Shown one piece after another: positions 5,888 through 30,376 of a DNA stretch of 64,000 nt (positions are counted from its first letter, which is position 1; the number at the start of each line of letters is the position of its first letter). Below the pieces are notes generated by a model, which searched no databases, had not been told where the DNA came from, and was given only the letters and a program-made list of their open reading frames with translations. The DNA lies in contig JARGXX010000105.1 of the NCBI GenBank assembly GCA_030374765.1, forward strand, positions 1,240,001 to 1,304,000, given 5' to 3'. This DNA comes from Agarophyton chilense (lineage: Eukaryota > Rhodophyta > Florideophyceae > Gracilariales > Gracilariaceae). Both the position numbers and the translations under genes were made by a program.

Positions 5888-5903
5888 TATATCCCTCCTT
5901 AGG
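5888..5903 (-). other. polypurine tract of H
   Basis: The minus strand reads CCTAAGGAGGGATATA directly before the LTR start. The same motif, CTWAGGAGGG, precedes the 3' LTR of H2, and a close variant precedes those of E2 and E1. It is the expected plus-strand DNA primer in reverse transcription. Confidence 0.75.
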
Positions 5904-6144
5904 ATTCGGCCGTCACGGTGAAATCCAGATGGCCTCTTGATTGACCCAGGGGACGCGAGCACTTCGTTGCTCCCGGTACCATTGGGCGCGAAGGGACATC
6001 GCGTCATCATCACCTGCGGGGATGCGGGGATGCGGGGATGCGTGAGCTGACCATTGGCGCCGAAGGGCAATTAATTTGCCTAAGGACGGAAACTCCCACG
6101 CGCCGTGAGCGCTGGCCATAGGTGCATCGCCGGCGCGGTTTTGA

Positions 6145-7963
6145 CATATGTATCTCGACGACAGAAGTTTTGCCAAGATACCCGATTTCCGGAGGGGCAG
6201 CAAGAACGCGCGCAGCGTCTCGTGGTACATCCGATGGTTGAATTGTTTTGTGGATCCGCGTTTGGCGACGCGATGTCGCACCCTCGTCCAAGCGGACATG
6301 CCTTAGGTCCGCTGCGAGAAGGAAGCCGAATACCAGTTCAGAGTGAACAAACTCCTCTCGGACCTATACACGGGTTTCATCTCGCCTCATGTGCGCTTTC
6401 CTTCGGCTGGTCAAAACCTCTTCGCGCTTATGTGCTTCCGACCACCGTACGACCGCTTGTTCTGGATGTCCAACCGGGTCTATTGGAATGATATGCACGA
6501 GCCCGATGGTCGTTTACGTTAATCCCTGGGGTTCTTGTTTTGTTGGCACCAGGTGGAGTTCCACGACATGAGCGCAGACAAACGTCTTCCGTTATATCTT
6601 TCGCTTCCCCACGAGGATGAGAACCAATGGGCCATGTTTTGGCGTGTCTCGCCGCTCCTTATCGTTCCCACGCCGTCCATGGTGGCGTACCACTCGTCCC
6701 AACTCATGGGCGGTGACAGTGAGCGAAGGTCGTGGCTGTCCAGGCAGGTACTCTTCGTTGACTTCGGCCTGATATCCCTTATGGCCTTCCTGGATACCGC
6801 GAAATACGGAATCCGTGGTAATGTCTGTTCGGAGAATTGGAGGGTGTGGTACGATGAGAACATACCCGGTCCTCGAGGTCGCCTAGTCCCGCTCCCGGAC
6901 ATCATGATCCGTTTCCTAAGGAACCTGGGCATCCAAAATATCGTCCGTGGGACTCAGGTAGACGTCGAGGATACCAAGGCTCTTTTTGGATCATGTCCTA
7001 CAGGTGGAGTGGGGCACGACTCCCGGGTTCCTTTGATATGACTAGGATACCGAATCATTCAGGCCGATTCCGCTGCATCCTCAGGGTCGGGACGACGCTC
7101 GTGCCTATCTCGCCAAGCCTTTGAGGAATCAACCATCGGACATTCCGAGGCGTCATTTGCCCGACTATTTTCCAAAGTGCATTGGTTCCGATCCTCTGTG
7201 CTTCGAGCCTGATGTGGAAGCCACGCCGTTGGTTCCTGCTGGTATGTCCGACGGAGAATCCTTCGGTGACTATCCCTTCGTTCATCCTACCCGTGGAGGG
7301 CGTTCATCCTCCGGTCGAGTCCGCTGTGATGTTGCCACCCCTTCCCCTCCTCAAACTCCTCAGGGCGCTGCTCCTCAGGATGATCTCTCGTATGAGCCGC
7401 CCGTCGCCTAAGTGAATATTCCTCCTGGAGAGGTTACTGTCGAAACCGAAAGTCCTAGAGGCGATGCACTTTCTCAAACGTCCACCGGGGGCGTCAACAT
7501 CGCTCCGTCCTCTCCGTTGGTGCACTTTCCTGCTTCGGTCACGGCTGCAGCCGCGGATCTCCGTCATGTCTGCCGTACCGTTGGTATTACGGCCTCGATG
7601 GAAATTGGGACAGTTCTGAGGGAAGCTTGCTCCTGGACGCGTCGCTCGGCGCGCTACGCCGCGGTTGTCGAACAGGATCAGGACCTGAAGACCGCCATGG
7701 TCAATATCTTGTAGTAGAATGCGCAGGCGATGTCCCAAACGGTCACTGCCGGCTTGGATGCCCGATATATTCTCAATTTGAGTGACCGGGAGGTTTCCGA
7801 TGATGACAATAGTTCCTCAGCAGAATCTCCTCCGAAGAAACGTGCTTGGCTGGCTGGGGCCGGTTCTGGTGGTCCAGTTCGCTCCTCGGGTGACTCTAGT
7901 CTCGGTTTTGCTCCTGAAGGTCCCAATGAGGACAACGGAGCTACTCCTATGCCACCCAGGTGA
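6145..7963 (+). pseudogene. antisense extra gene of Gypsy H (aORF), degenerate
   Basis: This frame lies opposite to pol, between the chromodomain and the 3' LTR. The part at 6145-7041 is in one frame with a few stops. It contains FRPPYDRLFWMSNRVYWND and, further on, a LMAFLDTAKYG...ENWRVWYDENIPG block. That block aligns by position with the E2 antisense protein (AAHLLWDAHDHFRVWYIPPM). After a frameshift near 7050 it runs 7121-7963 as a Pro/Ser-rich tail. The tail holds VGITASMEIGTVLREACSW, an acidic SDREVSDDDNSSSAESPPKK stretch and a short GAGSGG segment, with stops at 7409 and 7712. No known family is recognised. The relation to E1 and E2 is clear only in the core, so it is a diverged homologue. 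Confidence 0.65.
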
Positions 7964-8145: not shown

Positions 8146-8595
8146 TCAGGTGTCTCCGAAGGACTGAACTTGATACCTGATGCGGGAGCTACGAAGAACC
8201 GTCGTGTTCCGGCGAACCGTCGTGTTCCGGCGAACCGTCGTGTTCCGGCGAACCGTCGTGACGGGAGGCGGTTTGGGAGGCGTTTGGGGACTATACGGAC
8301 CAATGTTTGCCCCCTCCTGACGGCCGCGCTCCGAGTGGCTGATCTTGCGCCAATAACGGGCCATAAAAATAGTCGGAATGGTTTGAGGCTCTTGCCAAGT
8401 ATCTTCCTCAGGTGTGTAGCCGAACCAACGGACGCGATAGCGCATAGTTCCATCCTCCCCCCGACCGGCGGAAATGGTGCGCTCAATCACATATTTCGGT
8501 TCATGTTCATCCTCCAGAAGGAAAGTGTGGTCCAGAAGGGCGAATCCATCAGAGTCGGTTGGGAGCGATGGGTCATAGTAGTTGGCATCAACCAT
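8146..8595 (-). pseudogene. chromodomain end of H pol
   Basis: The frame reads from PSLPTDSDGFALLDHTFL into a chromodomain: PKYVIERTISAGRGEDG, then MRYRVRWFGYTPEEDTWQEP. The aromatic residues Y, W and W that bind methylated histone tails are all present. Chromodomains at the integrase C-terminus steer chromoviruses to heterochromatin. The tail carries an 18-bp direct repeat (three full units at about 8200-8262) that adds VRRNTT repeats to the protein. The matching H2 chromodomain is at 46665-46860. The stretch upstream in the reading direction (8596-8727) is poorly conserved linker. Confidence 0.8.
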
Positions 8596-8727
8596 CGTGT
8601 CCGTGGGGTTAGTCGAGTCCTCGGGAACTGCCTGAGAGGGTCTGGAGACTTGAGCGTCGACCTGACGTCGTGGTGCTTTCGTTGGGCCAGGGGGCTGGGA
8701 CTTTGGTGGTCCGGAGAAACTGGGAGC

Positions 8728-10142: not shown

Positions 10143-10809
10143 TGTAGTATTCTACTATGTCGGGGAATCCGATAGAATGATTTTTCTCGAAGTCGCGGTT
10201 GGAACTCATAAGTGAGTGATGTCATCAAACTTGTTATATGAAACGGCACACCGCGTAGGATGCCAGGAGGCAGGTTACATTAGTAGAACACGTGGTATCA
10301 CGAGTGGACTGGCTTGCAACGGCACATGTAGTGGCGATCCACGTGGCAGGTTTTACTACCCTTTGTAGCTAGACGTCCATTAGGGACCATACCCATACTG
10401 TGGTTTGGCTAAGTGGCTGACCACTGGGTATTATTTATATATTTATTTGGGCACTCACCCTGGTACACAGTATAAAGTGCACCAGAGGTGAGCGACGACT
10501 CCAAGTAAAGGAGACAACATGGGCATCATGACTATTCTGTTCCTCGCTTAGGATTCCTTAACCGGAGATCCGGAAGAGCTATAATAGATAGTCAGCCCCC
10601 AACCACTTCACGAGCCGTCTCGTACCTACGTTCCCTCAGCGTTTTACAGTTGCACTGTTCACCCTCGCTGGCGAGTAGTGGCCTTACAACCAACTTCCAG
10701 CTCGCTGGTGTTGTAGCTCTACCACCTCTTTTACTTGGCCGCAAGCGACCCATCGGCAGTCCGAACGCTGTTGCAGGTGTCTTCTCTCTCCGTTAGAGCG
10801 GATACCACA
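10143..10809 (+). repeat. 5' LTR of E1 (667 bp)
   Basis: It begins TGTAGTATTCTACTATGTCG and ends GGATACCACA. The partner is 20635-21301, of identical length. A T/A-rich block (TTATTTATATATTTATTTGG) and a TATAAAG further on look like core promoter signals. A solo copy of the same LTR family lies at 45993-46659. Confidence 0.93.
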
Positions 10810-10814
10810 AGTGT

Positions 10815-10829: not shown

Positions 10830-11024
10830 GCACTGTGGTCAGCTGCACTGAACAATTCGTTCCTGGAACGTGGAATCGATATCGATACTTGGAAGAAGTG
10901 GAATCACTACAGTTATTGATTATCAAACCACCTCCGGCAATTGCGGAATTCATCGTGGTTGAACACGTGGTCGAGAAGTCGAAGACACCATTGGGTTCGC
11001 ACCTGGACTCAGGTTTGGTCTAGG

Positions 11025-13176
11025 ATGCCGAAGACCCGAAGCCAGTCGAGTACTGGTCGCCCCAGTCCTGTGGGACCACCCCCGAAACCGAGGATCGCCT
11101 CATCTGTTGAAGCCGGAGAGCGGCTGTATCGTCAAGCGATGTCGCGCTCACGCTCGGTGAATGATGAACGAGATCTCTCGGATGTACCGGCCCCTGTGGC
11201 AGCGGCAGTCACGCCCACCACAGAAACCGTAGTTGACCCTGAGGTCGTCGGACCTCAAGAAGGGGATGATTTGCGCAGGGACGTGCGTCGTCTCAAGTCT
11301 GAGTCAAGCGCTTCGCGTGTAGGCATGGTTGCGTTGGAATCGCGGATCGCTGCTCTTATCGCTGATGTCGAACAATTTGGCAGTGCGCATCAAGCACTCG
11401 ATCGTCAAGACGATGGGAAGCAGGTCTCTGCATCACTGAAAACACTACGTGAGGATTTGAACCATCTACTGGAGAGGTACGGGAATACGCCCGATGCGCT
11501 ACCCGGCTTAACCGTGGATGTAGAGGAAGTCCTCACTCGAGCTAAACCTCGTTTAGAACGCCTGGAGGCGGCAGTTCATGCGCAGACTGCTGCTAAACCA
11601 GTCGTGCTGGAAGAGGAAGGAGCTCCTTTGGAGGAAGCTCTTTCGAAGAAGTCGAAGTCACGACGTAAGAAGCGGAAGTCCGCACGTGATTCGAGTGATG
11701 GATCGTCAAGTACGGAGGGTTCCAGTTCCATTACTGATGATTCTGATGATTCAGATACGTCAGATGACGACGATAGTGATGATGGTCATCGAAGGTCCCG
11801 ATCTCGGAAGAAGAACACGTCTTCGTGGTTAATGAGAAAAAAAGGCTCACCTTACATAGGATTGGAGGTGCTCCCGTGCACGAATCCGCTTTATCGGAAG
11901 GTCCTGAATTACAGGTACTACCGTGTGAAGGTGAAGAGCAAGAATCGCTCAGGACGCGAAACCGCGAAGGTGAAGGATCACATCAAACGATTGAAGATCG
12001 GCCTTAATGATTTAACATTTGATGGGGAACCCCCCATTCTCGTTATCGAGTTTCTCACTCGATTCGTTGCCGAAGCAGACACTCTAGAGATGAGTGAACC
12101 ACAGGCATTTGTGTCTTTACTACACTTCCTGAAGGGTTTTGCTTTAGAGCAATATCGTTCCGTATGCGAATCATTGACAGCCGATGAAGGCGGCGTTACT
12201 TCATGGCCTGAGGCGGTGCAGTATTTGCTGCGCAGTTACGCGAATTCAAACGCGATACGTCAGGCGATCCTAGACCTAAGGGATGTGACCCAAAAGCCTG
12301 AGGAGGGCGAAGCTGAGTACAGCTCAAGGCTTACCAAAGCTTCAGTCCGCTGTGGAAACGTCCACTCGACGGAGGACAAGATTACCTTGTACATCGACGG
12401 GCTGGAACCGAGCATCAAGTCGTTGGTAGCTCGATATGGAGAGAAGCATGGACGAGTCTCCTTTTTGGAGTTAGTTCAGTTTGCGAAAGCTGAAGGAGAA
12501 GCGGCCAGAGCGCGTGGTAGCCCCCGTCGTTCAGTGGCTTTTGGAACCTCAATTGGTAAGGAGAAGATCTCAGCCAGAGTTAATCACAACAGCAAACTGC
12601 TACATCTTGAATCTCCAGTTGACTCACGAGATTCGTCGTTGGCACCCAGATGGAGTGACTTGCATGAGGAGGGGGTCCATTTAATGGAATATACGGACTC
12701 TTCTGTACCTACAGTGGATCTCCCACACTCGAAGTTTCAGGACGAGGAAGCCCTAAAGGCTATGGAGGGCCATCGCCCCATGTACCCTCCCTACACGGTG
12801 CCACCACAAGGACGTTTTAAGAACGAGAAACCCGGTTGGGTGGATACTCGCACGGCATACCGTTCACAACCTACGTTGACCAACCTTCGTGACGGTTTGA
12901 TATGTTATTAATGTTATGGAAAACATCATTTGAGTGCAGAATGCACGCTTCCTGCAAAGGATGAGTCGTATCATGACGAATTATGAAGCACTCTCAGAAG
13001 AGGAAAGGAGCCGCGTACCGGCGGGCATGTATTGAAAAGCCAAAAGTTGGTTTTCTCAGGCACCAATGCGCCGGACGGACAAGCCGGTTGCTCAAAATGC
13101 TGAAGTGTTACAACCCGGAACCCCAGTAGTAACAGGCGCCTTTGAGGCGAATAAGCCGGTTCAACCGGAAAACTAA
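11025..13176 (+). pseudogene. gag of Gypsy E1
   Basis: The ATG at 11025 (MPKTRSQSSTGRPSP) opens 628 codons to 12911. Order: basic Pro/Ser-rich start; a heptad-like helical region about residues 90-190; a Ser/Asp-rich low-complexity block with SDDDDSDD about residues 230-270. A capsid-like region then runs about 340-530 (LVIEFLTRFVAEADTLEM to VSFLELVQFAKAEGEAARAR). A TAA at 12909-12911 lies inside a zinc knuckle that reads C-x2-C-x4-H-x4-C when continued (C at 12901, last C near 12940). A frameshift near 12958 leads into the last part, which ends GAAAAC-TAA at 13174-13176. It would form the particle shell and bind RNA. The start matches that of E2 gag in position and composition. Confidence 0.85.
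13167..13173 (+). promoter_or_regulatory. candidate -1 ribosomal frameshift site, E1 gag/pol
   Basis: GGAAAAC directly precedes the gag stop TAA (13174-13176). The pol frame is -1 relative to this final gag frame and is open from the same point through protease. The E2 element has GAAAAAC-TAA at the same place. Confidence 0.6.
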
Positions 13177-14171
13177 GTGAAGGAGCCCCTAGGGGGTCGG
13201 CACTAGTCGATCCCGTAGTGCTCACCAGGGAGAGCTCGCCTTCCTGCTCCCGCGCTTGGAAGCCCAAGATTCTCTTGAGGCCTCCCAAATTTCCGCCGTA
13301 CGGAATCAATCCGCCGGACGGAAAGCGAGTACATTTTGACTGTGAGTTACATCGTCCTTGGAGACGTTATACTTGTCCGTCAAAACGGGAAAGTTACCTC
13401 ATGGTAGTGTCTAAAAGGAACTATAAGGTCTATGCCGACATCGGCTCTGACAGGAATCTGTTATCTCTTCGATTGACTATCCTGGACACAGGTGCTAGTC
13501 CGAACTTTATACGGGAATCGAAGCTCGCTCCTGCTGACTTAGAACGTATTCGATACGGTCCTTTATTGGACATCTGGGATGCCAACAAAAATGCTGTGAA
13601 GAAACTGGGAACAGTTCGACTCGTGGTGCGTTTGGGACGCTTTGTAGTCCTATTCGACTTCATCGTCTGTAAGACATTAGCTGCACCAGTGGTACTGGGA
13701 TGTGATTATTGCGACAAGTTTGTCGAAGCCATTCGCCCGCGAAGAAAAGTAGTGGAACTAGATGATGGATCAGTGGTACCAATTATTCGCAAGCCAATGC
13801 GTCGTTGCTCTGAAGCACCTCCACTTTCACCATCTATGGAATACGGGAAATCCCGAGGACGTGTCTCGCCCAGGATTCGAGTAGCGAAGAGTGCCATGCT
13901 GAAGGCGCAAACCCAAACTTGGGTTCAAGTAAGAACAGAACGACACGGACTCGTGGTAATTCAACAGAATAATCGGATGTACGAATCCCGTGGATTGGTA
14001 GTGGCTAACGGCATTGCTCAGGTTGATCCTGGTAGCCCCTTTTGGATACTAGTGAGTAACTTCACCGATAACGATTATCATATACCGAAGAATCAGGTCG
14101 TTGCAACAGCTTTGCCTCATCCCACAGTGGTGGTCCCTACTCATATTTCTACTGCAGAAGTATTGGGATAA
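13173..14171 (+). pseudogene. protease part of E1 pol
   Basis: The pol frame opens at the gag stop in the -1 frame and runs to a TAA at 14169-14171. An aspartic protease is clear from LTILDTGASPNFIRESKLAP (active-site DTG near 13480) through the flap-like segment to LAAPVVLGCDYCDKFVEAIR, the second conserved retroviral-protease block. It would cleave the Gag and Pol polyproteins. The same frame continues past the stop into RT, so one nonsense mutation separates them. It aligns well with E2 pol residues 70-320. Confidence 0.87.
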
Positions 14172-15685
14172 ACCCATGTCGGTGACACAGACGAAGAACT
14201 GCAAACTCCGTCTGGAGATCAATTGCAAACGGCAAAGGATCCAGAGAGCCTGGTCCATGAGCTAGACTTAGCACATGTGTCCGAACACTACAGAACGAAG
14301 ATAAGGTCTATGCTGAAGAAGTATACATCCATGTGGAGTGGAAAACTAGGAGAAATCTCCGATACGGAACACCACATTGATTTGGTCTCAGGGTCACGAC
14401 CCATCTCCAAAGCACCCTACAGAGCGGGACCGCGAACTCGCCAAATCGAGGAGGAGAATGTCAGCAAAATGCCGGAAGAAGGAGTATTCGAAGCAGCTCA
14501 ATCTGCTTGGGCCTTACCAGTGGTGCTGGTTCCGAAACCTGATGGTTCTTTACGATTCTGTATCGATTATCGAAAACTGAAGGCAGTTACAGTTCGGGAT
14601 ACATACCCGTTGCCTCGAATGGACGAATGTATTGACAGCTTAGGAGAAGCGAACGTGTTCACCACGTTGGACGCCAACTCTGGCTATTGGCAGGTGCCTG
14701 TAGCGGAAGAAGACCAAGACAAAACCGCATTTGCGTGTCACGCCGGTCTTTACCGTTTCAAAAGGATGCCCTTTGGCTTAACGAATGCACTGGCTACTTT
14801 CCAGCGTACTCTGGGCATCTTGCTCTCAAGATACAAGTGGAAGACTTGTTTAGTCTATTTGGACGATGTGATCATCTTTTTCCAGCATGTGGAAAGCCAT
14901 TTAAGGCATGTCGAGGAGATCCTCAAAGCACTACAGAGCGCAGGTATCACCTTGAAGTTCAAGAAATGCGAATGGTTCGCTGGCACCGTCCGGTACTTAG
15001 CACATGTGATCAAGCCGGGACAGCTTGCCATTCAAGAGGCACAAACAGCGGGTCTCCGCGAAGTACAACCTCCGTCGACACAGAAGCAATTGCGTTCTTT
15101 CCTCGGCGTGTGCAACGTCTACCGACGATTTGTGCCGCGATACTCGCATATAGCGGCACCGCTCAACGCAAAGCTGCGTAAAGGACAACCAGTACAGCTG
15201 GAACAATTCAGACAAGCTGAAGTGGAAGCATTCGACACGCTGAAGACAAAGATTATTACAGCCCCATTCTTGGCGCTGCCCATCCCCGACCTGCCATACT
15301 CAGTGGATTCCGACTCTAGCAAGTACCAAGTAGGGTGTGCCCTTTTTCAAACACACCCTGATGGTGAACGCGAACCCATTGGTTACTGGTCAAGATCGCT
15401 GAACGCAGCTGAGAAGAAGTATTCAGTTTCAGAAAAGGAATGCCTTGCAGTCGTTTGGGCTCTAACCACATTGCGACCGTATCCCCAATAAGAACGTTTT
15501 ACCGTAAACACGGATCATTCGTCTCTACGATGGTTACTGTCCATTACAGACCCGTCTGGTCGTCTCACACGATGGCGCTTACGCCTTTCTGAATTCGATT
15601 TCGAAGTGAAGTATAAGAAGGGATTGGCCAATGTCCAAGGTGACGCGCTATCGCGACTGAAAACACTGCGCGAAACCCAAAGGTG
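14172..15685 (+). pseudogene. reverse transcriptase and RNase H of E1 pol
   Basis: Same frame as the protease. RT blocks: YRAGPRTRQIEEENV; VVLVPKPDGSLRFCIDYRKL; FTTLDANSGYWQVPV (first metal-binding Asp); RFKRMPFGLTNALATFQR; CLVYLDDVIIFF (the catalytic YLDD, near 14855); then the connection region LRSFLGVCNVYRRFVPRYSH. RNase H follows: YSVDSDSSKYQVGCALF, GYWSRSLNAAEKKYSVSEKE and, after a TAA at 15489-15491, TVNTDHSSLRWLL. The RNase H Asp appears in the altered context DSDSS. Further stops and a frame change occur near 15685. It copies the element RNA into DNA. Confidence 0.92.
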
Positions 15686-15699
15686 AAATCGATGAAGAG

Positions 15700-17781
15700 A
15701 TACCTTGCTTCTACATGGAGACCCATTCACCATCTTTTGAAGAAGAGGAACAAGAGACCCTTGATGATTATTCGGATGCAGACTCGTTCCTTTCATTAGC
15801 AGACGCTGACCCTTCAATTCAACTCGAGCGAATCTCGTGCACTGAGCTCCTCAATGAGCAACACACCGATAAGTTTTGTGCGTCGATACGCTCTCGTCTT
15901 AACGTGGGGGAGGAGCTCTTCTTTTCACTCGATTCACGAGGAATACTGTTAAGACATGTCAAAAAGCACGATCAAATCGTGATTCCACACGTCTTGAAGA
16001 GTCGAGTACTCCATCTGGAACACTACAGCAGGCGGTCTGGTCATCCAGGAGGAACGAAGTTGTTCATGACTCTAAGAAGAGATTTTTACTGGCCTACTTT
16101 GGCAATAGACTGCCATGCTACAGTGAGGTTGTGTACAACATGTGCGAAGAATCGCGTGAACTTTACAGGAAGCGGAAACCGATGAAGATATTCCAGGCGA
16201 AAGCGCCTCTACATTACGTCAGTATCGACATCCTAGGGGAATTGATTCGCTCAAGGCGAGGTTATCGCTAACTATTGGTAATCATCGACCGCTTCTCGAA
16301 GCTAGTGCGGACTGTGCCGCTGAAGCGGATACCCGCAACCGTAATCGCACAGGCGTTTATTAAACACTGAGTATTTGTTAGGAATTCAGATGATTCTTAG
16401 TCAATTATGTTATGCATTTATGTTAGGATTTAGTTATACTATGCTTTAAGTATGTTATTTGAGTTTCAGTGATTTGGCGGTCCAGTCCCATAATCCATTT
16501 TGACCCTAATCGTCATTTCAAGGACCATTGTCATCTCACACGTCACAATGACTTTATAGATGACATTCTTGTCACAATCAACAAAGCTGTCACTATCAGC
16601 ATCATCGAGCAAGTGACAACGAGGCATTGGACACGCATGCACGATTGAACCTCGTGGAAGCAGCCATGTTTCACATGGCACCCAATTAGAATGGTACACT
16701 AGAAAACACTCTTTTTGACCTCTTCTTCGAAGGTTCAATAGTCTATATAAACCCTGGTCGACCGGCCGACTCTCACCTCGGCCGTCACGATCATTAACCT
16801 TTTCAACCACTGACCAGTGTTCTAACAGTATTTATATACGGACCACCAAAAGTTCTGTTATCAGATATTGGGAAGCAATTCGTTGCGAAGTTCTTTCAGA
16901 ATGTTTGCCGCATTATGAGCATTCGACACGTGTTTACCAAGACCTATCATCCGCAATGCAACGATCAGGTGGAGCGTTTCAACCGCACGCTGATAGCAGC
17001 ACTACGACACTACATCGCGGACCACCCGAAAGAATGGGACATGTTTACTGATACTCTGTGCTACGCGTACAATACGCAAGTGCATACCTCTACAAAGACG
17101 GCACTGTTCGACCTCGTGTTCTCAGGTAACCCTCCGGCTTTACCGGTTGCGCTCGACGACGAGACAGAATTGGACGCGCCGACCCCGGCTAAGTACCATC
17201 TGAAATGGAGGAATGATCTTAAGGCCAGAGCGGAAGAAGCCGCTAAAGAGTTATCAAAGACGCAAGCTCGCTATAAGCGAAACTACGACGCCAGAAGGCG
17301 AAGAGGAAATCCGTCAATCCGAGTAGGAATTCACGTCTTCGTGCGAGTTGAAAGACCGGACAAACAGGAAGAATCTCGTCATAAGTTGTTTCTGATAGCG
17401 GCTGGAACCTTCAAAGTGGTGGACCTTGATGGAGTCACAGTGGCCATCAAGACAGGTGAGGACGTTGAACGTGTATCGCGCGATCGCGTTAAAGTCGCGC
17501 CTGACCCGGAAGTGGAAGTCCAGGTATCTGGTAGAACTAAGGAGGCAAGTGCGATGGAACGTCAAGGCAAAAGCCCAAGTGACTCTGGGGACAGTGAACC
17601 GCCACCAATGGCTCGAGCGGAGGAGAAAGCTCCTGATCTCCCACCGCCGGCCGTTGCGTACGCCAATCACGGGCAGCTTCCGAAGTATCGGGATATGCCC
17701 CGTGGCACGCACACACACGTAAGTACAGAAATGGAACCTGAAAGCAGGAAAGATGTTTTGGGAGTTGGCCCCAAGGACTAA
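15700..17781 (+). pseudogene. integrase of E1 pol, split by a solo LTR
   Basis: The HHCC zinc domain is at about 16000-16155 (HLEHYSRRSGHPGGTKLFMT then CTTCAKN). A frameshift near 16183 precedes the core start (HYVSIDILGE, first Asp). The 452-bp LTR at 16376-16827 interrupts the core, which resumes with YGPPKVLLSDIGKQF (second Asp) and NDQVERFNRTL (Glu). The C-terminal GPY/F-like region (FVRVERPDKQEES, then IAAGTFKVVDLDG) is present, with the GPY motif changed. The frame ends at a TAA (17779-17781) and continues in frame to the chromodomain. Stops before the LTR (for example TAA near 16270) show it is dead. Confidence 0.9.
16376..16827 (+). repeat. solo LTR (452 bp) inside E1 integrase
   Basis: It starts TGTTAGGAATTC and ends GTTCTAACA, with GTATT on both sides (16371-16375 and 16828-16832). 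Removing it and one GTATT rejoins the integrase core, where VF(V/I)YGPP is expected. A TATATAAACC at about 16743 suggests plus orientation. It matches no other LTR in the window. Confidence 0.93.
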
Positions 17782-18453
17782 AAAACGAGTGCACGCGATC
17801 ACGCGCCGTCGCCGCTTCAGGCTGAACCGTCAGGTGAATCGCCACTCGCTGTTCCGCCGATATCGGCTCCCATCCCTCTTGGGCAGGAAGAAGAAGAGGT
17901 ATCGCCTTCTGTCGTGGTGCAAGCGCCATCATCCACGCAACAGCGGTCAGAATCGGATAAACCGAAGAAAGTTCATCCACGAATGGAATTGAGAAGTACC
18001 AAGAAGTACGCTTCTATGGAACCTGGAAAACAGGATAGCTCTTTATCTGAGAAAGGTTCTCAAGGAATGAGTATACTGCCCCTGCGGGCAGAACGACAGT
18101 TATTCGACGAGCGAATGCTTAGCGACGCGGAGACAGCTAACACAGAGACGCTTGGATCAGCCCTAAGGCATTTCAAACCTGTTAACAGGAGTCCCATACC
18201 AACAGCGAAAGCATTGGGAAACGCCCAGGAATATGTTATGGATCGCATATGTGAACATGGCGAGCATGAAGATACCAGAAAACTACTGTATCGAGTCCTT
18301 TGGTACAGTTTTCCTCCGGAAGCGGATGCGTGGGAACCTATAGCTCATATCCCCCGTTCGCAACTCGTGCGATATCATCGACGCATGCGATTACCACTCC
18401 CCAGGAAGATCGACTCCTCGATGGTCGGGCTTATGGGCACGTCCCATTTCTAA
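17782..18453 (+). pseudogene. linker and chromodomain of E1 pol
   Basis: This follows the integrase in the same frame after a single TAA. About 150 residues of Pro/Ser/Glu-rich linker come first. A chromodomain follows: EYVMDRICEHGEHED, then LLYRVLWYSFPPEADAWEPI and HIPRSQLVRYHRRMR. The Y, W and W aromatic cage positions are kept. The frame stops at 18451-18453. It would direct integration to chromatin carrying a histone mark. Confidence 0.85.
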
Positions 18454-18475
18454 GTATGGGCTACCGAGGTAGTAA

Positions 18476-20466: not shown

Positions 20467-20618
20467 CGCGAGAGATCGATCTGAAGAGCGGTGAGAAACA
20501 GAATGCTGTTGAGAACTGTAAGAGTTGGTCGTGCGGCGAGGAATTCGTGATGACAATGAGTACCCGGAACACCGGTCCGACTGCGTATAAACGCTTCTTG
20601 CGTCCCCCGTGGTTCGCG

Positions 20619-20634: not shown

Positions 20635-21301
20635 TGTAGTATTCTACTATATCGGGGAATCCGATAGGATGATTTTTCGCGAAGTCGCGGTTGGAACTCA
20701 TAAGTGAGTGATGTCATCAAACTTGTGATATGAAACGGCACATCGCGTAGGATGCCAGGAGGCAGGGTACATTAGTGGAACACGTGGTACCACGAGTGGA
20801 CTGGCTTGCAACGGCGCATGTAGTGGCGATCCACGTGGCAGGTTTTACTACCCTTTGTAGCTAGACGTCCATTAGGGACCATACTTATACTGTGGTTTGG
20901 CTAAGTGGCTGACCACTGGGTATTATTTATATATTTATTTGGGCACTCACCCTGGCACACAGTATATAGTGCACCAGAGGTGAGCGACGACTCCAAGTAA
21001 AGGAGACAACATGGGCATCATGACTATTCTGTTCCTCGGTTAGGATTCCTTAACCGGAGATCCGCACGAGCTATAATAGATAGTCAGCCCCAAACCACTT
21101 CACGAGCCGTCTCGTACCTACGTTCCCTCAGCGTTTTACAGTTGCACTGTTCACCCTCGCTGGCGAGTAGTGGCTTTACACCCCACTTCCAGCTCGCTGG
21201 TGTTGTAGCTCCACCACCCCTCTTACTTCGCCGCAAGCGACCCATCGGCAGTCCAAACGCTGTCGCAGGTGTCTGCTCTCTCCGTTAGAGAGAATACTAC
21301 A
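20635..21301 (+). repeat. 3' LTR of E1 (667 bp)
   Basis: It starts TGTAGTATTCTACTATATCG and ends GAATACTACA, and CAATG (21302-21306) follows as the target duplication. It is the same length as the 5' LTR and by eye about 95% identical. It probably also supplies upstream sequence for the antisense gene that starts at 20466. Confidence 0.93.
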
Positions 21302-21770: not shown

Positions 21771-22684
21771 TGTGGAGCAAAACCCGGCGACGGGAAGTGC
21801 TGTCAAGGTGTTCGAAGCCTTGCTCCCTGGGGGAGGCAGACTCAGAGACAGAGCACTCCGTTCCACCCGTAGTGTGGGGTGTAACTCCCACGGAGATTCC
21901 GGCACTACCGACGGAGGTGAGGGGTAGAAACCGTTGGATCGGGAATGGGTATGGGTATCCCAAAGAATGGGGAAAATCCGGCGAAGAGGAAAAACGGGGC
22001 GAGGGTCGGGCACTAACAGGCACCGGACCCGAGAACCAGAAAAAGGGCGAAACAACAAAAGAAACCCAATACAGGGGCGAAAACCTGTCCTCGAAAGGAA
22101 ACACAAAAAGCACGCAACAAGTAAGCAGAACCCCCACGGGGTATCGTGCACGCAGGTCGTCTGAGCGGTCCCAAGGGGGTGGTTGCACGGAACCCAAACG
22201 TGGGCACTCTCCCAGTGGAGTCGTGTCCCTACGCAGGCGTTGCTAACCAGAGCCCGTTCCGGGTTGTAAGGCCGAAACGATGGCAACGAAGAACCTTTAA
22301 AGGTATCGAAGACCAACCTAGGTTACCATTTACTTTGAGCTTCGGACTGTCAGATCTCGTCTCCCTAAGTAGGGCCCACTAACTAAACTCTACAGTAGTG
22401 CACACCTGCTCAGGGCCATACACGTGGAGATCCCATTGTCAGGGCCCAAAAATCCGACGTTCTAACAAATATCCGAAAAATCGGTGCCAAAATTAAGCCA
22501 CGTGTATCACGGGGCCAATCCAACCATGGGCCATCCGAATTTCCACTTCATAGGCGAATTATAACCAGAAAACAGTGCCACCTCAGCACACGTTGGAGGG
22601 GATAATAGTCATACCCTCTTAGGGTTCAATCCTCATTCTATGAGTTGCATCTTCAAGTATCCCCTAACTGGGCGTTGCTCTACA
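21771..22684 (-). repeat. 3' LTR of E2 (914 bp)
   Basis: The plus strand reads TGTGGAGCAA at its left and TTGCTCTACA at its right end, a 10-bp near-perfect inverted terminus. The partner is 32631-33546, and a solo copy is at 57401-58314. Short reading frames inside it are repeated in all three copies because of the shared DNA and are not taken as genes. Confidence 0.95.
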
Positions 22685-22700
22685 TCTCCCCCTCCTTAAG
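22685..22700 (-). other. polypurine tract of E2
   Basis: The minus strand reads CTTAAGGAGGGGGAGA directly before the 3' LTR, as expected for the plus-strand DNA primer. Confidence 0.8.
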
Positions 22701-22765
22701 ACGAGGAAGAACATTCCGAACCACGGGTGTCTCGCGTTCCGGTCGCTATATATACTGCTCTCCCA

Positions 22766-24622
22766 ATGGGGTCCTTCACCACTTCTGAGGATCGCCACAA
22801 AACCGGCACATCGGCACAACTTTCTCCTACTCCTCCGACTTTCGGCGATAAGCAACTTCTCGCAACGGCAGTCTCAACCAACCCTCTCAAGGGAATGAAC
22901 CCATACGTCACCAACCCACTCTCGGGGCCGTCCGCCTCCGCGCCGGCGGAAAACGAAACTCCCCAGCAGGGTGGATATTTCTCCGGTTTGGATGCGGCTC
23001 CGTCAGGTACCGAACCTTCCGCCTCGGCGAGCAACCGACATGCTCAGGAGGATTTGGACATTAACGCGGTGGCGTGAAACTCCGCTCATGCGATGCCCTT
23101 GGTAGCAAACTCCAGAGGTTCGATCTCAAACGAATCCTTTCGAAGGTGAAGTCCCCTTATCGATCCGGTGATATATTCCCGCGCTCCTTGGTTCCATCCG
23201 ACAGCGGTTCGCGACGATGAGCTCATCGACTCCTACGTGGAGGACGGCTCATTGCCGGGTGGCCTACCTGTCGAGGTTGTACGTTCTCCCGATTGGAGGG
23301 CGCGGGTAGCCATAGAGCCTCAGTATCTATACCGCGGTCGCGGGGAGTCCCTGGACAAGGCGCGCGCAGCGATGGCGGCTCTGGCCTACCAGCGATTGGA
23401 GAGGTCACGCTTTGACCATCTGGTTCCCCCGGAGTACGGGTTCGATGTCGCCTATTACCGCACGTACGGTGAGGTCTCCTACGGGGATAACCTGGCAGCC
23501 TTTCCTGAAGCCGAGTTCCACGGACAGGGTTTTCCTCTCCGAGAAGATATGCTCCAATGGAGTCGTCCCATCCTTCGGGCTGAATTCAGGTACCTTCAAC
23601 GGCAGTTTACCCAGTATGGGTTCGATCGACGCGTGCGCTTCGAGCGCCGCTCGCGCTCCCGTTTCGGGTTCCTTGTCCCATATCCTCACGTGGATCTGGA
23701 GCGTATCCGTAACACGGCGAAGGTTGGGCGATTCGTGCCCCTTCCAGCTTGGTGGAGTAAGGTCGAGGTCCCCCGAGGGTGCTTTGCTGAACTGCCCCCG
23801 TGCATCTACTATATCGGGTCTCGTTTGATGCACGACCCGAACTCGGGATACTGGGCCCTCGTTGCAGCCGAGTGGGCAGCCCGCGTAGCGGCGCACCTCC
23901 TCTGGGATGCTCATGACCATTTCCGTGTCTGGTATATTCCTCCGATGCTACGGACCTCCATGCGTCAGATCGACCTTGTCCCAGCGTTGGGTTCGGTCAG
24001 CAACGTGCAAGACCTGTATCCAATCTTGGACGTGATCGACAACACCCAATGGGATCGAGTTCCAGTGGAAAATCAGCATGCAGGGGAAGGATCCGCGCGA
24101 GACAAGTCTCCTGGCCGGTACGATCCGGGCTCCGGTAACTGGGTCTATTACAATCCCTTCGAAGGGGTTCGCATCAGCGCGGCGCAAGCACGGGCGCTGA
24201 TTGACTCGCCTCGACCGATGCCGGTAAGACACCAGACGGGGTTCATTTATACCGACGATTACGAGCACGAGCCTCCAATAGACCTGGACGATCCAGCGTT
24301 GGATAACGACATGCCAGCTCTTAGTGGAGTACTCCCTGTGGAGCCATCTGCACCTTTCCAACCAGTGGAAACGACCTCAGCTGCGGCGGCGAATGCATCC
24401 GGTGGCGGTCCATCTGCTCCTCCCGGGTGGGGTGTGAACACCCTTGCGCAGGCGCCGGTTGCCCCTCCGCAAGCGGATAGTGTGCGACAAGGCCTCGTGA
24501 ACACCTGCATTCCGATTCCTCCGCGTATGACGGATGTGAGCCAGATGTTGGCTTTCGCCTCGGCGTACCATCAGGGTCAGAATCCCAACGGTGGAGCGGG
24601 TCCCTCCTCGGGCTTTCCGTAG
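22766..24622 (+). pseudogene. antisense extra gene of Gypsy E2 (aORF), two in-frame TGA codons
   Basis: The first ATG is at 22766, 82 bp from the 3' LTR. One frame runs 618 codons to the TAG at 24620-24622, interrupted only by TGA at 23075-23077 and 23147-23149. The part after the second TGA is a clean 480 codons. Residues 1-125 are Pro/Ser-rich. Core: RAPWFHPTAVRDDELIDSYV; LRAEFRYLQRQF; RFGFLVPYPHVDLERIR; CIYYIGSRLMHDPNSGYWAL; AAHLLWDAHDHFRVWYIPPM; ILDVIDNTQWDRVP. A tail follows with YNPFEGVRISAAQARALIDS, an acidic run and Pro/Ala repeats. It is homologous to the E1 and H antisense genes. No known family is recognised. It converges on pol and could be read from an antisense promoter near the 3' LTR. 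Confidence 0.85.
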
Positions 24623-24639
24623 TTCCGCCTTCGGGCAAT

Positions 24640-25022: not shown

Positions 25023-25313
25023 TTACCCGACTTGGGCACGATCCAGATTTGGAGGCAAGGTTACCCGAGCGCGTCGGTGATAGGATAAAACCTTAGACCT
25101 CTGAAGGTGCTCAATGGGTTCCCCTGTATCGTCATCAGGCGATAATCCGTACCATCGGACTTGGTAGCGAACTTCTCCCTCGGGGGTGTAGATGTGACGC
25201 ACGATGCGATCAATAACGAATTCCTGCGGGTACACTTTTCCCTGTTCGGGCTTCTCTTCCATCTTGGAACGCTCTAGTTCCCTTGAGGATGTCGACGTAG
25301 GGTCTACACACAT
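25023..25313 (-). pseudogene. chromodomain of E2, out of frame with pol
   Basis: The minus strand reads FVIDRIVRHIYTPEGEVRYQ, VRWYGLSPDDDTGEPIEHLQ and RSKVLSYHRRAR, a chromodomain like those of E1 and H. Between DDDT and EP the second cage Trp, present in H (DDTWEP) and E1 (ADAWEP), is missing. It lies 525 bp past the pol stop at 25838 and in a different frame. It is either a detached, decayed end of pol or reached by frameshift or splicing. The intervening 25314-25837 encodes no recognisable protein and probably corresponds to the 150-residue linker of E1. Confidence 0.75.
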
Positions 25314-25837
25314 CCTGGTGGGTTCTTTCTGTGTTGCGAGCGGGTCTCAGCACTTCGTCCAAACGGCGCCGAGTGGCCTGTGGGCTACGTTATAACTTCC
25401 GTCTACGGAGTCAAAACGGCCCAGTTTTAAGTTCTTCTTGAAGCTGAGCTCTTCCCGATAACAACAGTGTTCTTAGATTCCGTAACGGTTGAGAAACCGC
25501 GACGCAGTAGCGTCTCCAATATCAGGGGGGTAGGACTTCAACGTCAACCCGAGCTACGGAGACGAAGGTTGCTCCCGTGCAACGCGCCGTGCGACGGAGG
25601 CGGTTTGCGCGACGGTTGGTCGTCAGAGCCTTTTGATTGGCTCGGTGCCATTCGACGTGTGCCACACAAATGCGCGGGCGCCCCGTGTGGGGTGACCGTT
25701 CCTTGTGCGGGAAAATCTGCATATGCGGATGTGAGGTGGCGCTTTCGACACGCGCTAGCACTCTCCTGAGCTGTCCCCGACGGGTCTCACTCATTTATTT
25801 CCCATTCCTGAGGGTTCCAGTGTCTCCATAGGAGTTC

Positions 25838-28800
25838 CTATTCACATTCCATAACGGAGAGCCAAATTTGGTCACCCTCGTCGTCGAGATCTTCCCCGTG
25901 CGGGTCCGCTGACACAGCTCGTTCCCGAGAAAGCGGGGTTTGAGTGTGCGACACCTCAGTGTCTCGTCCGCGGCGGCGGGTGATCGTCGGCTCTGTAGGC
26001 GTTCCGGGTGCGGAGTTCTCCACACGACTCTCCCTAGGCGGGGTTTCGTCATCTTTTCTGACGTCGTGCTCGGCTGGGTCGGCGGTGATGTCGCTACCCA
26101 TACGCTGGGGTTGTGACTTCTCTGTCGTCGGCTCGGTCGGGCTCGCCGTCTCACTGTGAGAACTAGATTCCCTGTTAGGGCGACTGGCTGACGCCGAAAC
26201 ATCGTCCTGCGAAGGAACTAAGTCCTCCTCCCCCTCCTTAGGCGGAGAGCCAGGAGGCTTGATTACCTCCGGTGGGGGTGTAACTCTGTAAAAGTTCGTT
26301 GACTGGGCCCTTGAGGGAGCGGGCCCAGGTTCGGGAGTATCCGAAGTTTCCGGTAGGTCGGTTAAACCACGTTGCAGGTGCGGAAGTATAACGGGGCGGG
26401 TGTTCAAATCTCCGCTTGACGGGTTAACTTCCGTTGAATCATCCCCTGTGGAGGGCGTTGGTGCCGATACCACTTCCACATTTGGGTTGGGCGCTCGTGT
26501 GATGCGGTCCCTGGAGATCCGTTCGTGGCGGTTAGCGATATCCAATACCACCGTGTCCAGGTCTACAGAAACCACACGATAGGGTCCGTCCACAATTGAC
26601 GAAAGCTTGTGCCTACGTTCCTTTTCAGGATTGTAGTATTTGTTTCGAAGGAAGACGAAGTCGTCGGGCTCCACCTGAGGTAGAGGTTTGCGAACCCGAT
26701 TGTCAAAGTCCTTCTTGTAGGCGCGTTGAGCTTTGTCCATTGCTTTCCGGGCTATCGGCACCATCTTCGTAAGCCACTCCTTCCAGGCTTCTCGGTACAA
26801 TCCCGGTGACGGGTACGTCGACAGCGTCGGTTGAGCCTCGATGGCGACCGGCAGCGGTGTCCTCGACAGTACCAGTTCGAATGGGGATAACGATGTAACC
26901 CGATGTACCAGGGTGTTGTATGCATACGTGATAGCGTCTGTGTACAAGTCCCAATTTTTGGGGTGATCCGCAACATACGATCTCAAAGCGTTGAGTATCG
27001 TGCGGTTAAACCTCTCCACCTGGCCATTCCCCTGAGGGTGATACGTAGTAACAAATAAATTCCTTACATCAAGGATTCGACATACATCCTGAAAGAACTT
27101 TGATGCGAATTGCCCTTCGTTGTCGGATAACAACTGCACCGGCGGTCCATATACGAACACCCAATGGGTCACGAACGCTTGCGCAACGGTAGCGGCGGTG
27201 ATCCGCTTCAGCGGCACAGTTCTCGTTAGCTTAGAGAATCTGTCAGAAATGACAAGCAGATACCGATGACCTCGGGGCGTCCTGATAAACTCCCCTAGGA
27301 AGTCTATGGCCACGAATTCGAGTGGAGCCCGTGCCGGGAACAGCCTCAACTTCTTAGAGTGTTTCCGAAGTTTGACGTCATTCTTGGCGCAATTGGCGCA
27401 GGCCCGTCTGACGGCGTAACAATCGAATGCCATTGCCGGCCAGTAAAAGTCCCTTGTCGACGTGAGGTACAGTTTTCTTCCCCCGGGGTGGGCGCCAACC
27501 TTCACATAGTGAGTGAGGTGTAATACCCTCTGTTGTAGGGTGTGCGGCACAACTATCCTCGGGCGAAGTCCAACGGTCCTGATTAGGTAACCCTGATCGT
27601 CGTCCTCGAAAGGTAACTGAAATCCTCCGTTGAGGCGAGCCCAAATCCGTGTACAGAATGGGTCGAGCTGTTGCTCGCGTGTCATCTCCTCTGGAGAGAT
27701 AGGTATAAAAGAGCCGGTCGGCGAATCCAGACTCTCGTTGACGAGTATATCGTCACAAACATCATCCGTCAGCGGTTGAGCTCCTCCCTCGAGGTTCGAT
27801 ACCATAAAACATGGGATTTCATCGTCCTCGTAGGGTTCTGTTTCCGCTGTGGTTCCCAAGCGGGATAGTGCATCAGCCTGAGTGTTCAGCTTCCCTTTCT
27901 TGTACAGGATCTCAAAGTCGAATTCCGACAGTCGGAGACGCCAGCGCATAAGGCGGCCCGAGGGTTCGGAGATTTCCAGGAGCCAACGCAAACATGCGTG
28001 GTCCGTATGGACTTTGAAACGAGTACCCATCAGATAGGGGCAAAGTGTAGCTAAGGCCCACACAACGGCTAAACATTCTTTCTCGGAGACCGAGTAGTTC
28101 CTTTCATGGACATTCAGGGAACGTGACCAGTACCCAATAGGGTGACGTTCGCCATCCTCAGAGGATTCGAACAGTGCACACCCTACTTGGTTTGCACTAG
28201 CATCGGTGTCCACTTCGTAAGGGAGCCCAGGATTGGGTAGAGCCAAGATTGGCGGTGATGTTACGGCATTCACCAGTGCCGTGAAGGCAGACGCTTCCGC
28301 GTCGCCAAAAGGTTCCAGTTCAACTGGTTGTCCCTTCGTCAGGAGCCTGTTGAGGGGGGTGGCAATATCCGCAAAGTTCGGGACGAATCGGCGATACACG
28401 TTACACAGACCTAAGAAGGATCGCAACTGCGTTTGAGTTTTCGGGTGTTTTGCTTCCTTCAAGGATTTCACTCGCACTTCATCGATTGAAAGCTGTCCGT
28501 AACGGATGATAGGACCCAGATACTTAACCGAATCGATGAAAAACTCGCACTTCTTGAGTTTCAAGGTGATTCCCGCATCGAGGTGTATCTTCATTACGTC
28601 CCTGACGTGTTCGAGGTGGTCATCCAGGTTGTTGGAGAAGACAATAATGTCGTCTAAATACACTGGACACGTCCTCCACTTGAAGGGAGCCAACAGAATG
28701 TCTATCGCCCGTTGAAACGTTGCGGGGGCATTTGTCAACCCAAAAGGTATCCTCCGGAATCGGAAAAGTCCTTGATGACACACGAAAGCCGTTTTGTCTC

Positions 28801-30376
28801 GATCTTCCTCCCTAATAGGGACTTGCCAGTAGCCCGAATCGGCGTCGAGGGTAGAGAAAACAGTAGCGCTCCCAAGGGAGTCGATGTATTCGTCCATCCG
28901 AGGGATCGGGTACACATCCTTAATGGTTACCTCGTTCAGGCGTCTGTAATCGATGCAGAAACGCCATGATCCATCCGGTTTCGGAACTAACACTACGGGT
29001 GAGGCCCAAGCGGACTGGGCAGGTTCAATTACGCCCGCTTTAAGCATCTTCTCCACCTGAGATTTCTCCTCTTCCCGAGCTTTCGGTCCAGCCCTGTAAG
29101 GGTGTTGGGCAATAGGCCGAGTGTTCGGTAACAAGTCGATGCGGTGTTCTGTAATCCCAATAGTTCCAAGGGAACCATCCCACATGGGGGTAAATTCACG
29201 AAGCATGTGCCTCAGCTTCTCCCGATGAGATGCGGGTACATGGTTGAGATCCCATTTCTCCAATTCCTGAACAAGATCCGTCTGATCTGCTCCTGTGATA
29301 GGGGCCGTAACCTCCTGAGGTTTAAAGTGTTCAGCGTGTGGAGCTGCAGTCGTATGCTCACCGTCTTCCGCGATTTCGGCAGTGTCCTCCCCCTCCTTAG
29401 GGTCCGCCACACCAAGGACCTCTGCGATAGAGATCTTTGTAGGTACGACCGCATGCGGGTGTGGAAGAACAGAACCCAGTATCTGGTGTTTGACCAAATG
29501 CTGCGTTGTCTTCCCAAAGTTGGCTACCAAAACCTTGAAAGGTTTATCCGGTTCCACGGAGACAACCCCATTCGCAAGGGCGAGTTGACGCCGCGTGTAC
29601 AGGGACGGGTTCGGTTGTACCACAAGCACACCAATTTGCTTGGTAATACCTGTGACCCAAACCTGGGTTTCTGGCGGGATAGCCACTGACTTCGCAACCT
29701 TTACCCGTGTAGACACCGGGTCCTTCTTCACAGATTCCTGCTCGACAGGGAGAGGAACGCGTGTTCGCGCTGCTCCCTGTAAGGGTTTACGAACGATTGG
29801 GATCGTAGACCCGTCTTCGAGTTCAACAGTTCTATTCCGAGGACGGATGGCTTCCACGAAGCGGTCGCAAAAGTCACAACCCCGTATGACTGGTGCTGCA
29901 AGTGACTTGCATACAATAAACTCTAGCTGAACGAGATAGGAGCCTAACCTCACCATGAGGGAAATTGTACCCAGTGTCCGTAGCGGGTTGTTGTTCGCAT
30001 CGGCGATATCCAAACGTGGACCGGTACGAACTTGAACCCGGAGCTGCGGGTGTAACAATTCAACATGAATTAAGTTAGGAGCGGCTCCTGTATCCAGGAC
30101 AGATATTTGACGAACCATAAACTGGTTGGACAGGCCGAAGTCGGCGAATACTTTATAATTCCGCTTGGCCATTACCATAACTCGATCCGGAATACGGAGA
30201 TTACGGGACCGTATCCACGGGCGACGGAGGACACCAAAGTATCCCGAGCTAACGTCGATGTCAGCCGTTCTCCTTGAAAGGATAGTCACAGCCGGGGAGC
30301 GAAGCTGGAGCGCCTCGGGCGTCTTCAACTCCGGCTTAGAAGACGCCCCTCCCGCAGGGGAGACTCCCAAGTTTAG
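25838..30376 (-). CDS. pol: pol polyprotein of E2: protease, RT, RNase H, integrase
   Basis: The frame is uninterrupted over 1500 codons. Numbering from the TTG at 30370: protease DTG at 93-95 (VLDTGAAPN) and second block LAAPVIRGCDFCDRF about 158-171. RT spans about 425-690 with YLDD at 571-574. RNase H has DTDAS at 722-726, and YSVSEKECLAVVWAL and HTDHACLRWL follow. Integrase: zinc domain (GAHPGGRKLYL then CANCAKN), FVAIDFLGEF (Asp), LLSDNEGQF (Asp), NGQVERFNRT (Glu), giving DD35E; the C-terminal module holds VDGPYRVVSVD. It ends in a Pro/Ser/Glu-rich linker. There is no ATG at the start. The frame opens at 30400, overlaps the gag end by about 27 bases and is -1 to it, so it is expected as a Gag-Pol frameshift product. 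All catalytic residues I checked are present. Confidence 0.95.
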   Translation of the reverse strand, partial: LNLGVSPAGGASSKPELKTPEALQLRSPAVTILSRRTADIDVSSGYFGVLRRPWIRSRNLRIPDRVMVMAKRNYKVFADFGLSNQFMVRQISVLDTGAAPNLIHVELLHPQLRVQVRTGPRLDIADANNNPLRTLGTISLMVRLGSYLVQLEFIVCKSLAAPVIRGCDFCDRFVEAIRPRNRTVELEDGSTIPIVRKPLQGAARTRVPLPVEQESVKKDPVSTRVKVAKSVAIPPETQVWVTGITKQIGVLVVQPNPSLYTRRQLALANGVVSVEPDKPFKVLVANFGKTTQHLVKHQILGSVLPHPHAVVPTKISIAEVLGVADPKEGEDTAEIAEDGEHTTAAPHAEHFKPQEVTAPITGADQTDLVQELEKWDLNHVPASHREKLRHMLREFTPMWDGSLGTIGITEHRIDLLPNTRPIAQHPYRAGPKAREEEKSQVEKMLKAGVIEPAQSAWASPVVLVPKPDGSWRFCIDYRRLNEVTIKDVYPIPRMDEYIDSLGSATVFSTLDADSGYWQVPIREEDRDKTAFVCHQGLFRFRRIPFGLTNAPATFQRAIDILLAPFKWRTCPVYLDDIIVFSNNLDDHLEHVRDVMKIHLDAGITLKLKKCEFFIDSVKYLGPIIRYGQLSIDEVRVKSLKEAKHPKTQTQLRSFLGLCNVYRRFVPNFADIATPLNRLLTKGQPVELEPFGDAEASAFTALVNAVTSPPILALPNPGLPYEVDTDASANQVGCALFESSEDGERHPIGYWSRSLNVHERNYSVSEKECLAVVWALATLCPYLMGTRFKVHTDHACLRWLLEISEPSGRLMRWRLRLSEFDFEILYKKGKLNTQADALSRLGTTAETEPYEDDEIPCFMVSNLEGGAQPLTDDVCDDILVNESLDSPTGSFIPISPEEMTREQQLDPFCTRIWARLNGGFQLPFEDDDQGYLIRTVGLRPRIVVPHTLQQRVLHLTHYVKVGAHPGGRKLYLTSTRDFYWPAMAFDCYAVRRACANCAKNDVKLRKHSKKLRLFPARAPLEFVAIDFLGEFIRTPRGHRYLLVISDRFSKLTRTVPLKRITAATVAQAFVTHWVFVYGPPVQLLSDNEGQFASKFFQDVCRILDVRNLFVTTYHPQGNGQVERFNRTILNALRSYVADHPKNWDLYTDAITYAYNTLVHRVTSLSPFELVLSRTPLPVAIEAQPTLSTYPSPGLYREAWKEWLTKMVPIARKAMDKAQRAYKKDFDNRVRKPLPQVEPDDFVFLRNKYYNPEKERRHKLSSIVDGPYRVVSVDLDTVVLDIANRHERISRDRITRAPNPNVEVVSAPTPSTGDDSTEVNPSSGDLNTRPVILPHLQRGLTDLPETSDTPEPGPAPSRAQSTNFYRVTPPPEVIKPPGSPPKEGEEDLVPSQDDVSASASRPNRESSSHSETASPTEPTTEKSQPQRMGSDITADPAEHDVRKDDETPPRESRVENSAPGTPTEPTITRRRGRDTEVSHTQTPLSRERAVSADPHGEDLDDEGDQIWLSVMECE

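Follow-up and report, generated by a model that had tools for sequence, protein, structure and literature searches.

Why would long terminal repeat (LTR) retrotransposons keep a long open reading frame (ORF) on the strand opposite to gag-pol, and what might it encode? The question is raised by a stretch of 64,000 nucleotides (nt) from the red alga Agarophyton chilense (contig C105, JARGXX010000105.1, positions 1240001–1304000; hereafter the window), in which three Ty3/Gypsy elements lie nested: E1 on the plus strand, and E2 and H on the minus strand. In all three, the interval from pol to the 3′ LTR holds a gene on the opposite strand, convergent with pol. As judged from comparisons among copies in the 80-Mb assembly (GCA_030374765.1; 135 contigs), which served as the genome searched throughout, this accessory gene is almost certainly protein-coding and under selection, and its product would represent a protein family with no recognized relatives.

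Long antisense frames between pol and the 3′ LTR had been claimed in a preliminary description of the window, and they are found there, inside LTR-bounded elements, with one stop in 560 codons in E1 and two in 575 in E2. The other five frames contain 7–26 stops over the E1 span and 8–21 over positions 22895–24622 of E2. The gene converges on gag-pol without overlapping it; in both position (pol to 3′ LTR) and orientation it corresponds to the additional ORFs classed as aORF-3R. The shared core of the E1 and E2 proteins was likewise recovered (35% identity over 476 aligned positions between E2 copy L002 and the window E1; tblastn). Open copies, whose lack would have refuted the preliminary proposal, are numerous across the genome: 56 of the 87 scored E2-type matches (from 1,820 candidates) had no stop over the matched query. 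We analysed 21 E2 copies (20 fetched loci and the window copy), which were found and chosen by similarity to the accessory protein and so do not provide an unbiased sample of whether most copies of the family carry the gene. Distances between the copies are all roughly similar (median identity, 96.5%), and the 20 fetched loci align with the window element across their 10 kb, including the pol region. Fourteen of the 21 are open from the M-N-P start described below, one of them ending 4 codons early.

Selection was assessed from the ratio of nonsynonymous to synonymous change (omega; Nei–Gojobori method), with E1 represented by copy L011. Between E1 and E2 (L002), the proteins share approximately 35% of their amino acids over 539 codons, and identity at the first, second and third codon positions is 0.51, 0.56 and 0.29. 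Only 30 of 119 four-fold sites under an identical amino acid match, so that silent sites are saturated. Between E1 and F3, a related lineage, omega was 0.141 (340 codons) and 0.098 (211 codons), and between H copies it was 0.297 and 0.43; frame-shifted controls gave 1.3–1.7. These values indicate purifying selection on the frame in the E1–F3 and H lineages. The selection for a protein that had been proposed is therefore strongly supported between families, where omega lies far from 1 (E1–F3, 0.10–0.14) and silent sites are saturated. The proportion of nonsynonymous differences between E1 and E2 was 0.465 for the accessory protein, 0.437 for the integrase pieces of the window and 0.272 for reverse transcriptase; the accessory protein thus diverges like integrase and faster than reverse transcriptase, and is conserved like other proteins of the element.

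The gene extends beyond these two families. In H, a collinear profile match to the E family runs over 177 columns through the WRVWY block noted in the preliminary description (hhalign, P = 0.0009; stated probability only 22.9%). A local rerun scored 31.9, a value reached by none of 200 column shuffles (maximum, 27.7) nor by the reversed profile (17.3). By this modest but significant match, the H protein joins the E protein family. The H gene had been taken for one long frame; the window copy is interrupted by stops at 6304 and 6520 and by a frame change at about 6983–7039, and a copy elsewhere (C88:1302230) has an open frame of 748 amino acids with no stop in the match. For H2, a second H-type element, a decayed frame of about 560–620 codons had been claimed; only a C-terminal remnant is recognizable (Table 1). 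At least four lineages carry the gene (E1, E2, F3 and H), or five when F4 (L041), which we provisionally keep separate, is added. F3 comprises L020, L042, L044, L045 and L046, which are approximately 83–88% alike in DNA and mostly decayed; its protein is about 53–61% identical to that of E1 over the longer F3 matches, and that of F4 is 51–57% identical to E1. Genome-wide, the motif W-D-x2-D-x-[F/Y]-R-V-W-Y had 163 exact matches (0 for the reversed pattern) and a search with the H core gave 150 scored matches from 723 candidates, placing the gene at more than 300 positions in the genome, decayed copies included.

Comparison among lineages also locates the start of the gene. In E2, ATG codons occur at both 22766 (20 of 21 copies) and 22895 (20 of 21, the remaining copy being deleted there). 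The frame had been described as beginning at 22766; we reject this in favour of 22895 as the more likely start, because it reads MNPY, which matches F3 (MNPY in L044, L045 and L046) and resembles E1 (MDPN at 20466; M-D/N-P-N among E1 copies). An antisense TATA-like box, located a short way inward from the LTR edge, precedes the conserved M-[N/D]-P start by 78–148 nt. This box is present in five of five E1 copies (43 nt inside the edge in four and 32 nt in L012, which has a shorter leader), in 20 of 21 E2 copies (TATAWA or TATACA, 62 nt inside) and in two of the three F3 copies with a matched edge (42 and 45 nt inside); the LTR-edge pattern had no match in F3 L042, F3 L020 and F4 L041, which these counts exclude. 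The background expectation in the nested elements is 0.022 TATAWA or TTTATA per 30 nt and strand. Because E1 and F3 are related, the box amounts to two to three observations rather than many. A further box upstream of the TATA box, 'GAACCACGGG', was considered as common to E1 and E2 and dropped, as most E2 copies read GAGCCGCGGG. From the recurrence of the TATA-like box near the LTR edge, we consider it probable that the accessory gene has its own antisense promoter.

The predicted proteins are acidic (E2, 575 amino acids, isoelectric point 5.26; E1, 560 amino acids, 5.08), with low-complexity ends rich in Pro, Ser, Thr and Gly around the conserved core. No transmembrane segment was found in either (maximum 19-residue hydropathy, 0.93 and 1.24); an Env-like protein was rejected on this ground and on the antisense orientation of the gene. 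A duplicate of Gag or capsid was not supported by profile comparison with the Gag of the elements (hhalign E = 0.81, 25 columns). The protein had been described as unrecognized, and it stayed so in every collection searched. In Pfam, searched with the window pieces and, to E = 10, with longer copies, the E2 protein matched no family; E1 and a C-terminal piece of H gave only sub-threshold matches, to E3_binding (0.24) and Ntox35 (0.069), respectively, and there was no match to TRP28 (PF04195), the domain of Retand-type antisense genes. NCBIfam and PDB (by sequence) yielded only sub-threshold, chance-like matches; a protein scan of IMG/VR gave two pattern stretches and no relative, and motif scans of IMG/VR and of GTDB genome contigs gave 0 matches each.

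What could such a protein do for its element? A regulator of Gag, a silencing suppressor and a structural add-on had been put forward as candidates in the preliminary description. The explanation that we favour overall, with about as much doubt as confidence, is a third gene with its own promoter that supplies a positive trans-acting factor. Chromodomain Ty3/Gypsy elements of this alga would encode, opposite to gag-pol, a soluble acidic protein of about 560–575 residues; the gene would be transcribed from the internal TATA-like promoter and would not depend on the LTR promoter, from which the genomic RNA is made. Less certainly, the protein would act in trans, most likely in the nucleus, and may be needed to complete transposition by aiding expression, countering silencing, handling RNA or taking part in delivery to the nucleus. 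The positive role in trans, taken by itself, is a tentative proposal that we hold with slightly more doubt than confidence; it is suggested because the elements have kept the protein about as strictly as integrase. We regard as rather doubtful the fuller version, in which red-algal chromoviruses would carry an obligatory antisense third gene, with its own promoter and a previously undescribed protein family, that actively counters silencing by the host, or is indispensable to transposition in some other way, and that falls outside the known accessory classes.

Several observations weigh against this explanation. Evidence of constraint within E2 alone is thin and based on small numbers. Variants found in at least two copies gave an omega of 0.54 (core, 0.34), against 0.52 for pol (21 copies); for variants in at least three copies, omega rose to 0.70 (core, 0.42) against 0.30 for pol, and for those in at least four (19 variants) to 1.03 (core, 0.63) against 0.52. 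The N-terminal stretch of E2 (22766–23149, which includes 43 codons before the likely start) gave 0.94. Singletons gave 0.64 in the accessory gene, a value biased downward because the copies were chosen by similarity to the accessory protein, and a neutral-looking 0.93 in the true pol frame; the fraction of open E2 frames is biased upward for the same reason. As to the promoter, the consensus TATA box is absent from one of the three edge-matched F3 copies and one of the 21 E2 copies, no box was seen by eye at the corresponding place in the window H copy, and the spacing from TATA to ATG varies (125 nt in E1, 146–148 in E2, 114 in L044 and 78 in L045); moreover, TATACA boxes are included in the E2 count but not in the background figure. 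As to function, domain searches returned no domain pointing to a nuclear, RNA or chromatin role, and two AlphaFold2 runs on three-row alignments of the window's own sequences gave no usable fold (mean predicted local distance difference test scores, 40.9 and 34.5). Finally, these facts could be accommodated as well by a self-limiting factor or by a structural protein.

The first of these, a protein that limits its own element through copy-number control or repression of sense transcription, has analogues in Ty1 p22 and in HBZ of human T-cell leukaemia virus type 1 (HTLV-1). The antisense placement of the gene at the 3′ LTR makes transcription convergent with the genomic RNA likely, and self-silencing mediated by double-stranded RNA has been raised in review for the plant cases. 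We nevertheless consider self-limitation unlikely: restraint like that of integrase across saturated silent sites would be harder to keep, because copies without the gene should outcompete those with it, and the profile comparison given above does not support a derivation from Gag. An alternative that seems to us similarly improbable is a structural or particle-associated protein, such as a Gag partner or a component of the pre-integration complex, made from a separate transcript; the Pro/Ser/Thr/Gly-rich ends around a conserved core would suit such a protein, and that the 20 loci fetched for E2 align with the window element along 10 kb, pol included, also speaks for it, whereas a Gag partner needs no independent promoter.

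Readings in which the protein itself is incidental fare far worse. The antisense transcripts of some retrotransposons are non-coding, according to the review, and here too only the antisense RNA might matter, through production of double-stranded or small RNA; we consider this very improbable, because the codon-position pattern, with saturated silent sites and a conserved protein, points to selection on amino acids. An RNA role in addition to the protein may exist. That the sense strand holds the conserved coding information and the antisense frame is its shadow can hardly be right: a 262-codon sense frame does lie opposite the E1 gene (18868–19656, plus strand), with a translation that matches F3/F4 loci at 37–41% (E = 1e-39 to 1e-49) and E2 loci at 24–33% (E = 1e-10 to 1e-13), and antisense controls, otherwise at an omega of 0.98–1.9, fell to 0.29 (E1–F3) and 0.41 (H) in the frame that shares wobble positions, yet only the accessory frame is nearly stop-free over 560–575 codons (7–26 stops in the others), its tblastx match is far stronger (E = 1.7e-78, against 5e-27 for the best other frame), its omega is lower (0.14 against 0.29), and the 262-codon frame corresponds by phase to antisense frame 0, with an omega of 1.32 (E1–F3) and 0.98 (H). 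The low omega of the wobble-sharing frame is the shadow expected on that strand, and we interpret the 262-codon frame as the shadow cast by the conserved antisense gene. Conservation is thus strongest in the accessory frame, with one weaker shadow, and is not explained by the other strand.

The carrier elements belong to the chromovirus branch of Ty3/Gypsy, as seen in E2, which combines the order reverse transcriptase–RNase H–integrase with a C-terminal chromodomain, LTRs and a target-site duplication (TSD; Table 1). E1 and E2 were both inserted into H, as deduced from the sequences flanking them, which are contiguous in the relative H2. The 3′ LTR of H has only two other matches in the window (36479–36924 and 48644–49084); because both are inverted and flank H2, the 5′ LTR of H was not found in the window. 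H2 itself occupies 36483–49089 on the plus strand, with direct LTR copies (36483–36929 and 48644–49089) that are 89% alike, a reverse transcriptase frame at 43024–44100 and the accessory gene reduced to its remnant.

Table 1 Features of the accessory genes and their carrier elements in the window
Feature	Position	Strand	Remarks
E1 accessory gene	18784–20466	−	560 codons and stop; one internal stop at 19945 in the window copy
E2 accessory gene	22895–24622	+	575 codons and stop, counted from the M-N-P start; no internal stops besides 23075 and 23147
H accessory gene, decayed copy	6145–7963	+	Best-kept stretch 6523–7041; profile match to the E family
H2 remnant, C-terminal part of H-type accessory gene	47397–47627	−	64% amino acid identity over 77 residues
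TATA-like box, E1 accessory gene	20586–20591	−	43 nt inside the LTR edge, 125 nt upstream of ATG
TATATATA box, E2 accessory gene	22748–22755	+	62 nt inside the LTR edge, 147 nt upstream of ATG
E1 5′ LTR	10143–10809	+	LTR comparison
E1 3′ LTR	20635–21301	+	95.5% identical to E1 5′ LTR; 5-bp TSD CAATG by eye
E2 3′ LTR	21771–22688	−	LTR comparison
E2 5′ LTR	32631–33550	−	96.7% identical to E2 3′ LTR; 5-bp TSD CCTCG by eye
E1 gag-pol region, several frames	10920–18453	+	Chromodomain-like end by eye; gag, reverse transcriptase and integrase pieces align to E2
E2 pol frame	25838–30370	−	RVT_1, RNase H, Integrase_H2C2, rve
E2 chromodomain (PF00385), pol end, facing accessory gene	25023–25346	−	E = 2.5e-8
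H chromodomain-bearing pol end (PF00385)	8146–8727	−	E = 5.6e-5; 23.4 bits, just under the curated cut-off of 25.1
H 3′ LTR, adjoining accessory gene	5442–5887	−	LTR comparison

Other genes were noted in passing. The window contains a match to DDE_Tnp_1_7, presumably a PiggyBac-type transposase (40764–43187, minus strand; two frames, E = 1.7e-29 and 4.2e-5), a weak DDE_3 endonuclease match under the curated cut-off (3067–3621, plus strand; E = 2e-4) and a single-frame RING-finger gene, perhaps of the host, in which an N-terminal hydrophobic stretch was seen by eye (60895–62073, minus strand). In the genome, 14 of 15 phycobilisome matches lie on contig C39, which is probably the plastid genome; some matches recur about 186 kb apart (38445–39056 and 224129–224740), as happens when the assembly of a circular genome overruns its end. 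Of nine chlorophyll-binding matches in the genome, one is, as a protein, closest in PDB to 7y5e/7y7a, which we take to be Porphyridium complexes. These matches agree with a red-algal host, whereas families that mark Dikarya fungi (Fungal_trans, 0 of 9 candidates; DUF6533, 0 of 2) and elicitin-bearing oomycetes (0 candidates) were not found; each of these negatives is weak by itself, as the control genomes gave no match to the three families either.

As a kind of gene, defined by position and orientation, the accessory gene is already known; the protein family and the host group, on the comparisons made here, appear to be new. For plants, PMC7264820 and PMC11963269 describe additional ORFs that lie in antisense orientation after pol and before the 3′ LTR (Retand/Grande/RIRE2, aORF-3R); there, Grande gene23 is reported to be transcribed from a promoter upstream of the gene and to encode a nuclear protein, and the Retand antisense ORF to carry a TRP28 domain (PF04195). 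The red-algal gene resembles these in lying antisense between pol and the 3′ LTR across families, and differs in that Retand is there described as a non-chromovirus, whereas E2 pol has a chromodomain at its end and its host belongs to the red algae. The comparison with Grande/RIRE2-type plant elements in the preliminary description therefore holds as an analogy of position and orientation and goes no further, given the red-algal host and the lack of a match to TRP28 or any other Pfam family. HBZ of HTLV-1 is an antisense gene too; like it, the red-algal gene is a minus-strand gene read from near the 3′ LTR, whereas the TATA-like box of the red-algal gene lies in the internal region and not in the LTR, a likeness drawn independently of sequence comparison. 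For HTLV, PMC7264820 mentions that the 3′ LTR contains an antisense promoter.

Outside plants, Boty of Botrytis and Sclerotinia carries the antisense gene brtn (Zhao et al. 2011, as cited in PMC8365987 and PMC7264820), which the review groups with the pol–3′ LTR set (PMC7264820). The red-algal gene is similarly an antisense extra gene in a non-plant LTR element; the host of Boty is fungal, and the likeness is drawn from published descriptions. Env-like third ORFs and the ORF3s of bdelloid elements, as outlined in PMC5408684 and PMC7264820, are also extra genes downstream of pol, unlike which the red-algal gene is antisense and its predicted protein soluble and acidic. Two surveys, dealing with chromoviruses and with LTR elements of fungi (PMC2864245 and PMC3248453), show no antisense gene in the passages searched; Gypsy and Copia elements are reported in one paper on a Gracilariopsis genome, with no such gene in the examined text; and a literature search, mostly at the level of titles and abstracts and with few subscription papers covered, hence a weak negative, found no description of such a gene in red algae.

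The function of antisense accessory genes, and the origin of most of them, were given as unknown in the 2020 review (PMC7264820). That such a gene occurs in a red alga, on the chromodomain branch, with none of the described domains in its protein and with both its start and its promoter-like box conserved, suggests that genes of this type have been acquired by, or have evolved in, Gypsy elements on more than one occasion and in one and the same position. With more than 300 places in the genome, many open frames and strong selection between families, the elements of A. chilense would offer a practical system for asking what antisense genes do.

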